A DNA stretch of 64,000 bases from Methanoculleus sp. UBA374 (GTDB lineage: Archaea > Halobacteriota > Methanomicrobia > Methanomicrobiales > Methanoculleaceae), in the NCBI GenBank assembly GCA_002508705.1, contig DAYL01000003.1, forward strand, positions 1 to 64,000. Reading direction: 5' to 3'. The notes under the pieces are model-generated. The model had not been told where the DNA came from and did not search any database. It saw only the letters and a program-made list of their open reading frames with translations. The translations under genes were made by a program, and so were the position numbers. This document shows positions 15,018 through 41,567 of the stretch, piece by piece. Each line of letters starts with the position of its first letter. Position 1 is the first letter of the stretch.

Positions 15018-15504
15018 ACATTAACAATCGCATTGAACCGCAATAAACCCCCATTGATCTGCTTTAGCCCGGAATCGTCCCAAAAACCCTTTGCCGGGGA
15101 GGGTGCCCGGTCGAAAGTCCGCGGGGTTTTCATGCTCCTTTCGGCCTCATCTGAGGGTGTGGAACGGATCAGGAACACCGTCAGTACAATCCCGAAAATG
15201 TTTTGAGTCCGCATTCCAGTTCAGTGACTTTCCCAAAAAAAACAGAGGTTCACGACGCGGCAACTCCAACCAGGGTGTATCAGGGGGCTCGCATGAGTTT
15301 TGGGACTCACGCACGGGAATCGGAGCCTTCACCCGATACCCTTAAGATACCGCCCGGAGAACATGATACAGCACCATATGTGCTGGCTATGGTAAGTCCG
15401 ACGTGCTCCCGGAAGCACTGCCCGCAAGGGCTCGGGATTACAGAAATTAGTCAGTTAACGGCTCTTTTCTGGACTTACATAGTATATCTAACGGAGGTGT
15501 ATAA
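15018..15504. other. 487-bp intergenic region before rps15
   Basis: This stretch lies between the divergent kinase and rps15 genes. It ends with a good Shine-Dalgarno (GGAGGTG, 15494-15500) for rps15 and contains a possible TATA element in TTACATAGTATATC (15475-15488). Several short open frames cross it, but none has a recognisable protein pattern and they overlap one another. A GC-rich CTCCCGGAAGCACTGCCCG segment (15405-15423) may fold but I cannot name an RNA. Confidence 0.4.
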
Positions 15505-27702: not shown

Positions 27703-27791
27703 AGGGGCAAATCAACAAAATCCGGTTAACATAATGGAGAAATTTAGCAAATAATATACCTCCCCGCGCCCCATAGCAAAGCGCAGACGCC

Positions 27792-28484
27792 ATGAAGTTG
27801 ATTACCGTTGCAGGCCCTCCGTCTTCAGGGAAGACCTCCGTGATTCTCAAAACCATTGCAGCTCTCGGACTACCCGGGGGGAGCGTGGGCGTCGTGAAGT
27901 TCGACTCGCTCACCTCCTTCGATCACCAGCGCTACGACGAACAGGGGATACCCAACCAGACCGCGTTCGCCGGCAAGATCTGTCCCGACCACTTCTTCGT
28001 CAGCAATGTTGAAGGGGCGGTCGAGTGGGGCATGAAGAAGGGGCTGTCGGTTCTCGTCACGGAGAGCGCAGGGCTCTGCAACCGGTGCTCGCCGTACGTG
28101 AACGGCATTCTGTCGGTCTGCGTGATCGACAACCTTTCCGGCGTCAATACCCCGAGGAAGATCGGGCCGATGCTGAAATACGCCGATATCGTCGTCGTCA
28201 CCAAAGGGGATATCGTCTCTCAGGCGGAGCGTGAAGTCTTTGCCTTCAACGTCCACGAGGTCAATGCGGCGGCAATCGTTCTCTTCGTCAACGGCATTAC
28301 CGGCCAGGGAGCGTTCATGCTCGCCCGCTACTGGCAGGACGCACTCGATATCCAGACGCTTCGCGACCGCAAACTCAGGTTCACCATGCCCGCCGCCATC
28401 TGCTCGTACTGCACCGGCGAGACCCTTATCGGGGAGCCGTATCAGATGGGGATGGTCAAAAGAGTGGGGTTTGACGACGCATGA
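27792..28484 (+). CDS. HypB/CobW/UreG-like GTPase
   Basis: A 230-aa P-loop protein. Walker A is GPPSSGKTS at residues 8-16, a switch-like DHQRYDEQG follows, and TKGD (near 138-141) serves as the NKxD base-specificity motif. Cysteines cluster in CNRCSPYV (near 97) and CSYCTGE (near 201), possible metal ligands. Relatives insert nickel, cobalt or zinc into enzymes by GTP hydrolysis. It is distinct from HypB, lacking the His-rich N-terminus. It is coupled by ATGA to an ABC ATPase, then a DUF364 gene, forming a cassette just after hypF. Confidence 0.85.
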   Translation: MKLITVAGPPSSGKTSVILKTIAALGLPGGSVGVVKFDSLTSFDHQRYDEQGIPNQTAFAGKICPDHFFVSNVEGAVEWGMKKGLSVLVTESAGLCNRCSPYVNGILSVCVIDNLSGVNTPRKIGPMLKYADIVVVTKGDIVSQAEREVFAFNVHEVNAAAIVLFVNGITGQGAFMLARYWQDALDIQTLRDRKLRFTMPAAICSYCTGETLIGEPYQMGMVKRVGFDDA

Positions 28485-29515
28485 ATGCCCTCGGTTACGT
28501 TGCCGAGGTTTCGACCGTCCCAATCGGCGAGATCCTCCGCCGCTATCCTCTTGCAGTCGATTACCTTGCCAATATGCGACTCGCCGGGGTCGATGAGACC
28601 AAAACACTCCCCGAAATTCTGGAGGATGTCGATGAGGATATGCTTGAGGAGTTCGGGCTCGACCGTGAGGAGGTCATCTACCACTTCTGTGCATTCCTTG
28701 AGGCGTTTTCCCGGGCGAAGGGGTCGGATGAGGCGATCTCCTCCGTTACGATCCTCGGCGGACGGGACAAGACAGGAAGGCCGGAGATGGTCGAATTGAC
28801 AATAACGCCCGGTGAGGTCGTCAGCATCGTCGGTCCCACCGGCTCGGGGAAGAGCAGACTGCTTGAAGATATAGAATGCCTCGCCCAGCGCGATACGCCG
28901 ACCGCAAGGCAGATCCTCATCAACGGCTCGGTTCCCGATGCCGACAAAAGATTCGCCACCGGGGGCAAACTGGTGGCCCAGCTCTCGCAGAATATGAACT
29001 TCGTCATGGACTTAACCGTGCAGGAATTCCTGAAAATGCACGCAAAAAGCCGGATGATCCCCGATCCCGCCGCAGTTGTGGAGAAGTGTTTTGCGGTTGC
29101 CAACTCTCTTGCGGGCGAGAAATTTACGCTCGATACGAAAGTCACCCAGCTCTCCGGCGGGCAGTCGCGGTCGCTGATGATCGCCGATACCGCACTTCTG
29201 AGTTCATCCCCGATCATCCTTATCGACGAACTGGAAAATGCAGGAATCGACCGGCGGGAGGCGGTCAAGCTCCTTGTCGGCAACGAGAAGATCGTCCTCA
29301 TGTCGACGCACGATCCGCTCCTCGCCCTCCGCGCAGACAAACGGATCGTCATCAGAAACGGCGGCATTGCAAAAGTGATTGAAACGACGGCGGAAGAAGA
29401 AGAGACGCTGCATAAAATCGAGGCGATCGACTCCGTCCTCCTCGATATCCGTAATCAACTCCGGGGAGGAGGGATCGTTGCAAAAGAGAGTATCCCGGAA
29501 TTTCAGGAGAAATGA
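28481..29515 (+). CDS. soluble ABC-type ATPase with N-terminal DUF1858-like helical domain
   Basis: A 344-aa protein without membrane segments. Residues 12-85 (IGEILRRYPLAVDYLANMRLAGV... EVIYHFCAFLEAF) resemble DUF1858/ScdA-N-type helical domains found on metal-cluster proteins. The ABC core has Walker A GPTGSGKS (near 113-120), signature LSGGQSRSLM, Walker B IILIDELENAG, with Glu replaced by the DEL form, and the H-loop MSTHDPL. No permease is nearby, so it probably drives a conformational change on a cytosolic partner, like the A2 protein in methyl-CoM reductase activation. The partner is probably one of the two flanking products. Confidence 0.8.
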   Translation: MNALGYVAEVSTVPIGEILRRYPLAVDYLANMRLAGVDETKTLPEILEDVDEDMLEEFGLDREEVIYHFCAFLEAFSRAKGSDEAISSVTILGGRDKTGRPEMVELTITPGEVVSIVGPTGSGKSRLLEDIECLAQRDTPTARQILINGSVPDADKRFATGGKLVAQLSQNMNFVMDLTVQEFLKMHAKSRMIPDPAAVVEKCFAVANSLAGEKFTLDTKVTQLSGGQSRSLMIADTALLSSSPIILIDELENAGIDRREAVKLLVGNEKIVLMSTHDPLLALRADKRIVIRNGGIAKVIETTAEEEETLHKIEAIDSVLLDIRNQLRGGGIVAKESIPEFQEK

Positions 29516-29518
29516 CCT

Positions 29519-30277
29519 ATGTGGGAGTTATACGACGCATTGATCGAAGAGATCCCGGACGATATCATCGTCGATGACATCGTCGTCGGCGGAGAGATGA
29601 CGTATGTTGAGGCAAACGGCGGCATCGGTCTTGCGGCATACCGCGATTATGTCCAGCGCGCGCCGATGATGACCAAAAATCGGATTGGAATGCCGTTAAA
29701 AGAGGTCGCCGGGTGTGTGAAGTCCTGGAATCTGCGGGAAGCGTCCATCGGCCAGTCGGCGATCGATGCGTGGTACAACCACCCGGATGTCGCTCGGCGC
29801 GCAGGGATCGAGGTTCCGGAAAAGAAGCGGGTTGAGGAGCGGCTGAAAGACCCGTTCATCCGGTCCCAGAACCTCGTGAAAGGAAAGAAGGTCTGTGTCG
29901 TCGGTCATTTTCCGTTCCTTGAGAAGCTGATCGCCCCGGTCTCCGACCTGAGCATCGTTGAGTGGGACCCCGCGGAGGGGGATTACCCGTATTCCGCCTG
30001 TGAGTATCTGCTGCCGGAATGCGATTATGCGTTCCTGACCTGTGCCGCCGTCGGGGACAAGAGCATGCCGCGGCTTCTTGAACTCTCGGAGAATGCAGAA
30101 GCGGTGACGATCGTAGGTCCGGGAACTCCTCTGTCCTCGGTATTCTTCGATTACGGCGTCTCCGATCTCTCGGGTTTTGTCGTGACCGACGCTCCGCTCG
30201 CCAAAAGGATTATTGCAGGAGCGGAGAGCCAGAGGATCTTCGGGGCGGGAATGAAGGTGCAGTACCTCCGCCCCTGA
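29519..30277 (+). CDS. DUF364 (DUF4213-DUF364) putative metal-chelating protein
   Basis: A 252-aa protein. The N-terminal DUF4213 part (about 1-95) has an enolase-N-like layout; the C-terminal DUF364 part (about 118-250) is Rossmann-like: KVCVVGHFPFLEKL, SIVEWDPAEGDYP, ITIVGPGTPLSSVFFDYGV (spelled VTIVGPGTPL here). The family has been suggested to bind heavy metals on structural grounds. It is the third gene of the cassette, four bases after the ATPase. What it binds is unknown. Confidence 0.85.
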   Translation: MWELYDALIEEIPDDIIVDDIVVGGEMTYVEANGGIGLAAYRDYVQRAPMMTKNRIGMPLKEVAGCVKSWNLREASIGQSAIDAWYNHPDVARRAGIEVPEKKRVEERLKDPFIRSQNLVKGKKVCVVGHFPFLEKLIAPVSDLSIVEWDPAEGDYPYSACEYLLPECDYAFLTCAAVGDKSMPRLLELSENAEAVTIVGPGTPLSSVFFDYGVSDLSGFVVTDAPLAKRIIAGAESQRIFGAGMKVQYLRP

Positions 30278-38329: not shown

Positions 38330-38512
38330 ATGGACAAAGAGAAGATACGCAAAGCGTTCGAGGCGTACGGCATAGAAAACGAGATCACCTGCCCGCAGGC
38401 GTTCGAGATCTCCGGGAAGTACGACATCTCGAAGGCGGACATTGCCCGATACTGCAATCAGCGCGAACCGAGGATCAAGATCCGGGCCTGCCAGTTGGGC
38501 TGCTTCAGATGA
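38330..38512 (+). CDS. 60-aa conserved small protein upstream of moeA
   Basis: Starts MDKEKIRKAFEAYGIENEITC and ends RACQLGCFR. It is HTH-like: EITCPQAFEISGKYDISKADIARYCNQREPRIKI, with three cysteines (ITC, RYC, ACQLGC). The stop overlaps the moeA start (ATGA). I recall such a small protein next to molybdenum-cofactor genes in methanogens but no function is known; a Mo/W-linked DNA-binding or Fe-S role is a guess. Confidence 0.65.
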   Translation: MDKEKIRKAFEAYGIENEITCPQAFEISGKYDISKADIARYCNQREPRIKIRACQLGCFR

Positions 38513-39711
38513 GCCTCTTCCTTGAGGTCGTGTCCGTCAGCGAGGCCGTGGAGGCGGTGCGGAGGATCGCCCCGCTGCCCGGGTGCGAGGAGGTCCCGCT
38601 CGAAGACGCCCTCCATCGGGTTCTCGCGCGGGATGTCCGTGCCGATATCGATATCCCGGGGTTCGACCGCTCGACGGTCGACGGCTACGCACTCGCCGCT
38701 GCCGAGACCACCGGGGCCTCCGAGGCCATCCCGGCTATGCTCCAGTGCCGGGGCCGGGTCGGGATGGGAAGCGCGGATGTGGGTGAGATCTCTTCAGGGG
38801 CGTGCCGATACGTTCCCACCGGAGGGGCTCTCCCGGAGGGGGCGGACGCGGCGGTGATGATCGAGCACGCAGAGCAGATCGGGGACGACGTTCTGATACA
38901 CCGCCCGGTGGCGCCCGGCGAGAACGTGGTCTTCCGGGGCGAAGACTTCGGCGCCGGGAAGGTCGCCCTGGAGCGGGGCCGTGTGCTCTCGCCCCGGGAG
39001 ATCGGCGTAGCCGCGGCGGTCGGCGCCGACCGGGTATCTGTGGTGACGAGACCGAAGATCGGGATCATATCCACGGGGAACGAACTCGTCCCCGTCGTCG
39101 AGACCCCGGGGCCGGGGGAGGTGCGGGACGCAAACTCCTACCTCGCCGGCGCTTTCGTGACGGAGCGGGGGTGCCACCCGGTCTACTTCGGGATCGTCAG
39201 GGACGAGCAGGCGATGCTGAAGAGGGCAGTCTCTTCGGCGCTTGACCGGTGCGATGCGGTCCTGGTCTCGGGGGGGTCCTCGAAAGATGAGCGGGACAAC
39301 ACCGCCGCGGTCATCGCGGAACTCGGCGAGGTGCTGGTGCACGGGATCGCCATCGCGCCGGGAAAACCCACCATCATCGGAACGGCGGGGGGAAAACCGG
39401 TTATCGGACTCCCGGGGCACCCGGCATCGACCTATGTCGTGCTCGTCGCCGTCGTCGACCACCTGCTCGCGGCGATGCAGATGACCACCGTCTCACGGCG
39501 GACCATCCGCGCACAGCTGACAGAGAACGTTCCTTCCACCCGCGGGAGGGAGGACTACGTCCGGGTCAGCGTCAGGAACGGGAAGGCGACGCCGGTCTTC
39601 GGGAAGTCGGGGCTCCTCAACACCCTGGTGCAGAGCGGGGGGCTGGTGCAGATCCCGGCGTCGAGCGAGGGGCTCGAGGTCGGCGAAGAGGTTGAGGTGA
39701 TTCTGTGGTGA
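38509..39711 (+). CDS. moeA: molybdopterin molybdenumtransferase MoeA
   Basis: A 400-aa protein inserting Mo or W into molybdopterin, needed for formylmethanofuran and formate dehydrogenases in methanogens. FDRSTVDGYAL (near 52) is the signature, the MogA-like domain has STGNELV (near 186) and SGGSSKDERDN (near 255), and LPGHPAST (near 301) is the conserved MPT-binding loop. It is followed by a second, fused moeA in a GTGA overlap. Confidence 0.95.
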   Translation: MSLFLEVVSVSEAVEAVRRIAPLPGCEEVPLEDALHRVLARDVRADIDIPGFDRSTVDGYALAAAETTGASEAIPAMLQCRGRVGMGSADVGEISSGACRYVPTGGALPEGADAAVMIEHAEQIGDDVLIHRPVAPGENVVFRGEDFGAGKVALERGRVLSPREIGVAAAVGADRVSVVTRPKIGIISTGNELVPVVETPGPGEVRDANSYLAGAFVTERGCHPVYFGIVRDEQAMLKRAVSSALDRCDAVLVSGGSSKDERDNTAAVIAELGEVLVHGIAIAPGKPTIIGTAGGKPVIGLPGHPASTYVVLVAVVDHLLAAMQMTTVSRRTIRAQLTENVPSTRGREDYVRVSVRNGKATPVFGKSGLLNTLVQSGGLVQIPASSEGLEVGEEVEVILW

Positions 39712-41567
39712 AACGCTACCTCTCGGTCATCTCTCTCGCCGAAGCGCGGGAGCTCGTGGAGCGCTCCTTCCCGGCGATCCCCGGGGTCGTCCGGGTCCCG
39801 GTGACCACCGGAGCGGTCGGCAGGATCACCGCCGGGCCCATATTCGCCAGGTTCTCGGTCCCCGCCATCCACCTCTCGGCGATGGACGGGATCGCGGTAA
39901 GAAGCGCCGATACCCGCGGGGCAAGCGAGCAGCACCCGGTGACCCTCCCGGTTGCGGTGCGGGTCAACACGGGAAACATCGTCCCGCCCGGCTACGATGC
40001 GGTGGTGATGATCGAGGATGTCTGGGTTGAGGGCGAGACCTACACCATCAGAAAGCCGGTCAGCCCCTGGCAGCACATCCGCCCGGTCGGCGAGGATATC
40101 GGGGAGTCGGAGATGATCCTCCCGCAGGGCCACCGGATACGGCCGCAGGACGTGGGGGCGCTCGCAAACTACGGGGTCACCGAGGTCGCGGTCAAAAATG
40201 TCCGGGCGGGGCTGATCCCCACCGGGAGCGAACTGGTGCCGGCGGGCGAGATGCCGCCGCCCGGGAAGGTGGTGGAGAGCAACACCCTGATGGCCGCGGC
40301 GGTACTCGAGGAGGCGGGCGTGGAGGCGCACCGCTACGCAATCGTCCCGGACGACTACGACCGGATCCGGGACGCCGTCCGGCGCGGCGTCGCCGAGAAC
40401 GATATCCTGTTCGTCTCGGCCGGCTCGTCCGCCGGGACCCGCGACTACACCGCCGATATCGTCCGGGACCTCGGCGAAGTGCTGGCGCACGGGGTCGCCA
40501 TCAAACCCGGAAAACCGGTGATCATCGGCCGGATTGAGGGAAAACCGGTGATCGGCCTTCCCGGCTATCCCCTTGCGGCGGCAACCGTGCTCCGCGAGAT
40601 CGTGCTGCCGTTCATAGCCCGCTACGGCCTTTCCGTCCCCCGGCCGGAATGCGTCGACGCCCGGCTTACCACGAGCCTGCACTCGGATATCGGGACGGAC
40701 GAGTTCGTCCTCCTCTCGGTGGGGAGGATCGGCGACCGCTGGGTGGCGGTGCCCCAGTCCCGGGGCGCCGGAGTTCAGATGAGCGCGGTGCGGGCGAACG
40801 CATACCTGCAGATCCCGGCGCAGAAAGAGGGGGTCGAGGCCGGGGAGACGATGAGCGTCCGGCTCACCGTCCCCCGCGCGGAGGCGGAGGAAGCGGTGCT
40901 CATCACCGGCAGCCACGACCCGGCCCTCGACTACCTGGCCGACCTCATCCGACCGCGCGATGTCGATATCCACTCCACCCACGTCGGGAGCATGGGCGGC
41001 GTGATTGCCCTGAAGAAGCAGGAGTGCCACGCGGCCCCGATGCACCTTCTCTCCCCCGACGGCACCTACAATATCCATTACCTGGAGCGCTACCTGCCCG
41101 GCGCGGACCTCGTCCTCCTCTGCGTGGCGGAACGCCAGCAGGGGGTCATGTCCCGCGACGGGCTGACGATTGACGATCTACCCGGCCGGACGTTCATCAA
41201 CCGGCAGAAGGGGTCGGGGACGCGGGTGCTCTTCGACCACGTTCTCACAAAACGCGGGATCGCACCGGCCGCCATCCCGGGCTACGACCGCGAGGCGACG
41301 ACGCACCTTGCGGTGGCCCTGGCCGTCCGGACCGGGGAGGCCGATGCAGGAATGGGCGTTTACAGCGCCGCAAAGGCGCTCGGTCTCGCGTTCGTCCCGG
41401 TGGCGACGGAGCGCTACGAACTCGCGATTCACCGGGCGATGCTCGACGACCCCCGGATCGCGGCCCTCGTCGAGACTGTCTCGTCGGAGGCGTTCAAGCG
41501 GGTCCTCCGGGACCTCGGGGGCTACGAGACGGGCGAGACCGGCGTCCTGCGCGGACTGCGAGGCTGA
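39708..41567 (+). CDS. MoeA fused to a periplasmic-binding-protein-like domain
   Basis: A 619-aa protein. Residues 1-400 are MoeA-like (SAMDGIAVRS, STGSELVP as PTGSELVP, SAGSSAGTRDY, LPGYPLAAAT). Residues 405-610 resemble a PBP/LysR-substrate type II domain (GSHDPALDYLADL, STHVGSMGGVIALKKQECHAAPMHLL, GTRVLFDHVL, GEADAGMGVYSAAKALGL). Such fusions sense or hold molybdate/tungstate or its complex. A GTG at 39708 has the better ribosome spacing; the GTG at 39705 is also possible. The 3' end overlaps the convergent LOG-like gene by 74 bases. Confidence 0.9.
   Translation: MKRYLSVISLAEARELVERSFPAIPGVVRVPVTTGAVGRITAGPIFARFSVPAIHLSAMDGIAVRSADTRGASEQHPVTLPVAVRVNTGNIVPPGYDAVVMIEDVWVEGETYTIRKPVSPWQHIRPVGEDIGESEMILPQGHRIRPQDVGALANYGVTEVAVKNVRAGLIPTGSELVPAGEMPPPGKVVESNTLMAAAVLEEAGVEAHRYAIVPDDYDRIRDAVRRGVAENDILFVSAGSSAGTRDYTADIVRDLGEVLAHGVAIKPGKPVIIGRIEGKPVIGLPGYPLAAATVLREIVLPFIARYGLSVPRPECVDARLTTSLHSDIGTDEFVLLSVGRIGDRWVAVPQSRGAGVQMSAVRANAYLQIPAQKEGVEAGETMSVRLTVPRAEAEEAVLITGSHDPALDYLADLIRPRDVDIHSTHVGSMGGVIALKKQECHAAPMHLLSPDGTYNIHYLERYLPGADLVLLCVAERQQGVMSRDGLTIDDLPGRTFINRQKGSGTRVLFDHVLTKRGIAPAAIPGYDREATTHLAVALAVRTGEADAGMGVYSAAKALGLAFVPVATERYELAIHRAMLDDPRIAALVETVSSEAFKRVLRDLGGYETGETGVLRGLRG

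Follow-up and report, generated by a model that had tools for sequence, protein, structure and literature searches.

A GTPase and soluble ABC ATPase cassette with exchangeable third partners in Methanoculleus sp. UBA374, and its possible part in molybdenum and tungsten handling

The first 64,000 nucleotides of contig DAYL01000003.1 of Methanoculleus sp. UBA374 (the window of this work, taken in its full length) contain a cassette of three genes built around a pair of nucleotide motors. The first open reading frame (27792..28484, forward strand) encodes a HypB/UreG-like metallo-GTPase of 230 amino acids, with a GPPSSGKT P-loop and the short motifs CPDH (residues 64-67), CNRC (96-99) and CSYC (204-207). 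The second (28481..29515, forward strand) encodes an ATP-binding cassette (ABC) ATPase of 344 amino acids, extended at its N-terminus by about 90 residues and with no transmembrane partner in the operon, whose close relatives, at up to 93% identity, carry Methanoculleus names. The third (29519..30277, forward strand) encodes 252 amino acids of the Pfam DUF4213/DUF364 kind, a full-length relative of Dhaf4260 (crystal structure 3L5O). The first two reading frames overlap by four bases (ATGA) and three bases separate the second from the third; the places of the genes and their spacing are just as an earlier note, made by a model from the letters of this DNA, had described them. That note took the three genes for a dedicated machine that builds, inserts or repairs a metal centre. 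Its observation was right and its interpretation is partly supported here: the two-motor machine stands, and molybdenum or tungsten (Mo/W) is the best-supported cargo for cassettes of the DUF364 type.

The two motors and their pairing

The GTPase scores 38.6 bits against the Pfam family cobW/HypB/UreG (PF02492, gathering score 20.7) and stays far under the NCBIfam equivalog cut-offs for both hypB (40.5 against 121.2 bits) and ureG (20.4 against 204.2). For the first domain of a fused relative, UreG (with nickel) and HypB rank at the top, as a metallo-GTPase fold would have it. The two CxxC sites noticed earlier are present (C96-x-x-C99 and C204-x-x-C207), together with a C64-P-D-H67 motif that had gone unmentioned, and all three, the second in the form C96-x-R-C99, are invariant among 21 diverse members representing every type of cassette. 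In a profile search C64 aligns with the cysteine of the HypB GKEC motif; the residues in question bind metal in HypB and UreG. By its sequence, then, this protein is a member of the HypB/UreG superfamily whose invariant cysteine and histidine motifs form a putative metal site, and it differs from HypB and UreG in the added CxRC, in the C-terminal CxxC, and in its pairing with an ABC ATPase by gene coupling or fusion.

The ABC ATPase (ABC_tran, 64.3 bits) is intact, with Walker A (GPTGSGKS), Q-loop, LSGGQ signature, Walker B and H-loop, and its ABC domain can be aligned to those of transporter ATPases; the window operon encodes no transmembrane subunit and so does not qualify as an ABC importer. 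From the soluble ABC ATPases of the SufC type, which belong to cofactor assembly, it is set apart by an operon without a SufB/SufD-like gene and with a GTPase as partner instead. The DUF1858-like domain that had been read into its N-terminus reaches 13.5 bits where the Pfam cut-off is 32.2, and is found in one of 21 relatives at E<=0.01.

The adjacency of the two genes recurs far above chance. A contig scan, with patterns taken from the window protein that favour its close relatives, gave 78 loci (L001-L078), to which genome searches added more. Across the fetched loci an ABC ATPase lies on the same strand within 500 bp of the GTPase in 156 of 161 GTPase matches, a count that, like the neighbour counts given further on, includes related and partly overlapping loci and is not one of independent events. 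The matches without such a neighbour are four at contig ends (L004, L014, L031 and L100) and L067, the sole true exception. In Clostridium sp. LS (L049) and in a Clostridium metagenome-assembled genome (MAG; L050) both proteins are one open reading frame; among the matches listed for this fusion, which come from clostridia and other organisms, 92 of 120 relatives carry both domains, GTPase first, and the list includes single-chain versions from Clostridium beijerinckii and C. saccharoperbutylacetonicum. The GTPase and ABC distances correlate as well (r=0.86, 91 pairs, 0 of 999 permutations), a correlation to which shared species history contributes, and an AlphaFold model of the fusion (pLDDT 84.7, pTM 0.79) suggests, without proving it, a defined arrangement of the domains. 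Adjacency and fusions thus make the GTPase and the soluble ABC ATPase a dedicated unit, as had been proposed, and the two proteins presumably touch each other also where they are separate. No paper describing the cassette, and no biochemistry of it, was found in the open-access literature of PubMed Central (PMC), and the available part of PMC2408646 does not name the cassette families. Two records were found in a plasmid collection.

Exchangeable third partners

The third protein passes the Pfam cut-offs of both DUF364 (PF04016, 111.7 bits) and DUF4213 (59.2 bits) and matches Dhaf4260 over its full length at 325 bits. Among ten DUF364 members the motifs G-H-F and G-D-x-P are invariant, and no cysteine is; metal binding by this protein is a suggestion that comes with the family label. 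In the portion of their paper available here, Miller et al. suggested heavy-metal chelation for Dhaf4260 and noted a context of iron, tungstate, vanadium and molybdate transport (PMC2954201). The main text of that paper has the term 'GTP' zero times.

The earlier note had treated DUF364 as a constant part of the cassette, and in this it did not hold up: the third place can be taken by DUF364 or by one of several other partners. The plain GTPase-ABC-DUF364 order of the window makes up 58 of the 156 paired matches, with one further match having DUF364 plus an iron-sulphur (Fe-S) protein, and most of the others have another partner. In a second type a solute-binding protein of PF13343, with no obvious signal sequence by eye, precedes the GTPase-ABC pair; in a third, a divergent GTPase-ABC pair is followed by another solute-binding protein; and in a fourth the ABC gene comes first, then the GTPase, then a PF04060 Fe-S protein. 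The third partner was not recognised in 13 of the 156, often through a short flank. Two types stand side by side in Acetobacterium paludosum (L013). A search of the PDB with one solute-binding partner gave no match at E<=0.01. DUF1858 does exceed its cut-off on partner solute-binding proteins (40.4 bits in L048 and 35.9 bits in L113).

The type with the PF04060 Fe-S protein is seen at L126:5458-10381 and in L157, and the same run of L126 also holds a DUF364 gene, NifU and what by eye is an Mrp-like ATPase. In Methanomicrobia 97 of 149 genomes have a GTPase match, and most of these matches are relatives at about 35-41% identity. Carbon monoxide dehydrogenase/acetyl-CoA synthase was considered as the target of this type and rejected: CdhC is present in 76 of these 149 genomes and GTPase-family matches in 97, and there are Methanomicrobia with either one alone (by eye).

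Genomic surroundings and distribution

The neighbours of 84 cassettes were surveyed in loci of at least 12 kb among L001-L079 and L110-L129 (L016 was too short), with, as controls, 20 stretches of the same genomes at a distance of half a contig; the 44 solute-binding cassettes of this survey include the divergent type of L122-L124, and four cassettes fit no type. FecCD-type permeases lie within 10 kb of 22 of 32 DUF364-type cassettes (a count that takes in four Methanoculleus loci, L005, L006, L039 and L056, at 35-39% identity) and of 12 of 44 solute-binding-type cassettes, as opposed to none of the 20 controls. Among solved structures, a profile of eight neighbour permeases matches HI1471 (MolB) at 335 bits, followed by FhuB at 232, and the neighbour permease is thereby, in sequence, nearest to MolB among the solved class II importers, its substrate being a prediction. 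The profile of the neighbouring binding proteins ranks 4pag and 4ovk (unnamed binding proteins), 4hn9 and then HI_1472 (MolA, 126.6 bits), its best match of known function, followed by binders of siderophores, haem and B12. MolBC-A (HI1470-1472) is described as a molybdate transporter of H. influenzae in the part of PMC4031551 available; it resembles the neighbour of the cassette and not the cassette itself, and its ATPase is separate.

Mo genes proper flank 11 of 44 solute-binding-type cassettes (p=0.013), six of these 11 being from Chlorobiaceae/Chlorobaculum. In two MAGs of Desulfoscipio geothermicus a molybdenum or tungsten cofactor (Moco/W) riboswitch lies directly 5′ of the GTPase, one of them has a second such riboswitch upstream of a FecBCD operon, and the cassette of this species adjoins genes for a MOT1 molybdate transporter and for a protein resembling WtpA (223 of 355 bits, below cut-off). 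Genes for modA and modB follow the cassette in L029; moaC and moaA are near the archaeal cassette of L016, whose third gene is cut off; modA, modB and nifH surround the fusion of L049, and moaA and moaC lie near that of L050. Homocitrate-synthase-like and PF00148 genes are present in L036, and L052 has a ModE-domain-like protein (80.8 of 98.5 bits, below cut-off).

Several further features of these loci were observed. The WtpA-like tungstate-binding protein at L020:4240-5061 (reverse strand), below cut-off and adjoining a MOT1 transporter, is without an obvious signal sequence and is possibly another cytosolic Mo/W carrier. In the clusters of Chlorobi and Bacteroidales (L072, L065 and L052) a uroporphyrinogen methyltransferase-like gene (119.5 of 185 bits in L052) and TonB-receptor-like genes (by eye) join the importer and the cassette, and in Fusobacterium vincentii (L079) the cassette adjoins TroA/Znu-type metal transporter-like genes (by eye). 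TrmO-like neighbours occur at six cassette loci and also in one of the 20 controls, and were not used as evidence.

In the window itself, hypF (TIGR00143, 719.5 bits) lies directly upstream of the cassette, with an AT-rich stretch between them (27703..27791, forward strand) that may hold the cassette's own promoter. The neighbour is real, and its link to the cassette, which the earlier note had leaned on, is not conserved: tblastn at E<=1e-10 found hypF in none of the 179 other fetched loci, many of which are just a few kb long. The hypF argument falls for that reason, and that from DUF1858 because the domain stays below its cut-off. What survives of the claim that the cassette belongs among metal genes is its place, in many loci elsewhere, by genes of metal uptake or metal cofactors; its tie to hydrogenase does not survive. 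Two tandem moeA genes lie further on in the window (38509-39711 and 39705-41567). They show that a MoeA target is present in the organism and, at a distance of 8 kb, prove nothing. The second bears a C-terminal PBP_like domain, which is also found, joined to a helix-turn-helix (HTH), in proteins beside some cassettes; such PBP/HTH proteins occur in L034, L049 and L050. A ribosomal protein leader RNA (S15-Methanomicrobia, 15370-15441) is an ordinary feature of the window.

Cassettes are carried by methanogens, acetogens, sulfate reducers, clostridia and green sulfur bacteria. MoaC is present in 43 of 51 carriers (50 genomes plus a single record) and a nitrogenase-family protein over the cut-off in 46, while 49 have one or the other. 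Six of the carriers without MoaC have PF00148 (a family that takes in nitrogenase-like proteins too) at E<1e-100, and NifQ is present in two of the 50 carrier genomes.

Proposed function and its alternatives

We consider it somewhat probable that the cassette of the window's type, with DUF364 as partner, is a cytosolic two-motor machine that handles molybdate or tungstate after import. The Mo/W link comes from gene context, and it is above all the permease profile, with MolB as its nearest relative, that carries it. In such a machine DUF364 (or, in the sister type, an apparently cytosolic solute-binding protein) would hold and present the Mo/W species, the ABC dimer would drive its release or conversion with ATP, and the GTPase, through its cysteine and histidine motifs, would gate or time the hand-over to the cofactor pathway. 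The recipient might be MoeA (molybdopterin insertase) or, in diazotrophs without NifQ, a scaffold of the FeMo-cofactor; both the order of these steps and the target proteins are conjecture. NifQ and HesA, the Mo donors for FeMo-cofactor, come from families unrelated to those of the cassette and act at a step where, in some diazotrophs, the cassette could serve. For Paenibacillus, the available part of PMC6361004 ties HesA to the supply of Mo and S.

Several observations weigh against such an interpretation. The known cargo of GTPases with the HypB/UreG fold is nickel, not oxyanions. No Mo gene adjoins the cassette of the window, its moeA genes being at 8-11 kb. Mo genes proper flank four of 32 DUF364-type cassettes (p=0.15), and of these four loci two are of D. 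geothermicus, the species with the riboswitches, and one has the PBP/HTH regulator only. The proteins used as BLAST references for Mo, FecCD and nif genes had themselves come from cassette loci, a bias towards matches there. The 'iron complex' protein 4hn9 scores 132 bits with the binding-protein profile, slightly above MolA. The riboswitch RF01055 is present in 21 of 50 carrier genomes (filters were stricter in a search of 40 genomes), and it borders on the GTPase in two of them, the MAGs of one species. The GTPase also occurs without MoaC and without a nitrogenase-family match over the thresholds in a Spirochaeta MAG (G048), in Fusobacterium vincentii and in two Bacillota (G202 and G419). 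Among Bacillota, 13 of 15 close carriers (GTPase at E<1e-80) have MoaC and six have PF00148 (at E<=1e-20), compared with 190 and 66 in the sample of 279 genomes; neither is a clear enrichment, and genome co-occurrence was set aside as proof of Mo use, these counts not being decisive. Nitrogenase as the sole target was rejected too: of 148 Paenibacillaceae genomes 18 have PF00148, and 17 of these 18 are without the GTPase, which is found in one genome of the family, that of the query itself.

Possible, and doubtful rather than probable, is a more general engine of metal-centre maturation or repair, in which the third partner adapts the GTPase-ABC pair to each metal or metalloprotein and Mo/W is one case. 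One core shared across several partner types fits it, and so do the carriers with neither MoaC nor nitrogenase-family matches, the PF04060 Fe-S protein of the ABC-GTPase type (close, in L126, to NifU and to a DUF364 gene) and the TroA-like neighbours in Fusobacterium. The hybrid-cluster protein, named by NF003658 and PF03063, speaks for it and against Mo/W as the common cargo: it lies within 5 kb of the GTPase in seven Bacillota loci of the solute-binding type (L112-L118) and within 10 kb in L018, L035 and L076, in all near eight of 44 solute-binding and two of 32 DUF364 cassettes, with none in the 20 controls. In four of the seven a CRP/FNR-like gene stands beside the hybrid-cluster protein or the cassette (partly by eye), and these loci suggest a link to this odd Fe-S-O enzyme. 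The Fe-S type, for its part, has no Mo neighbours in its four loci. Against such generality, Mo-type importers and Mo genes, and not genes for varied metals, are the recurrent neighbours of the DUF364 type and of part of the solute-binding type.

An unlikely alternative is iron, brought in by Fec importers as ferric chelates and released or trafficked by the cassette for nitrogenase, hybrid-cluster and other Fe-S proteins. The importers do belong to the Fec family, TonB-receptor-like genes accompany the cassette in Chlorobi and Bacteroidales, iron binders are among the binding-protein families (4hn9 being the third-best match), and some loci have iron-rich enzymes nearby. The permease profile, however, favours MolB by about 100 bits, and the riboswitch control in one species and the modAB and moa neighbours also point away from iron. 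More improbable still is a nickel-inserting paralogue of HypB and UreG, for hydrogenase or another nickel enzyme: it would account for the common fold, the metal-site cysteine and hypF next door in the window, but the GTPase stays below the hypB cut-off, and no match to hypF was found at the 179 other fetched loci. Least of all do we expect the ATPase to power a membrane transporter whose other genes lie elsewhere, with the operon as a transport operon. The earlier note would have given up its cassette idea if the ATPase consistently paired with a permease in other genomes, and the frequent FecCD permease bears this out in part. This permease and the alignment with transporter ATPases are outweighed by the FecE-type ATPase that these permeases have of their own in the mapped operons (e.g., L013, L017 and L027), by the fused proteins, and by the ten of 32 DUF364-type cassettes near which no FecCD permease is seen.

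The Mo/W role itself may be limited to the DUF364 type and its near sisters, because of the hybrid-cluster neighbours and of the Fe-S type without Mo neighbours, and the GTPase-ABC core may be more general. To our knowledge, little is understood of how Mo/W gets from its importer to the enzymes that insert it, except in bacteria with NifQ. We tentatively propose, as less assured than the Mo/W role of the window's own type, that these cassettes belong to an undescribed class of cytosolic trafficking machines, in which a GTPase and an ABC ATPase work with interchangeable carriers, and of which one branch would be the missing Mo/W donor of anaerobes, including that for FeMo-cofactor where NifQ is absent. 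If this is true, such a coupling of two motors would add an unexpected step to the allocation of metals.
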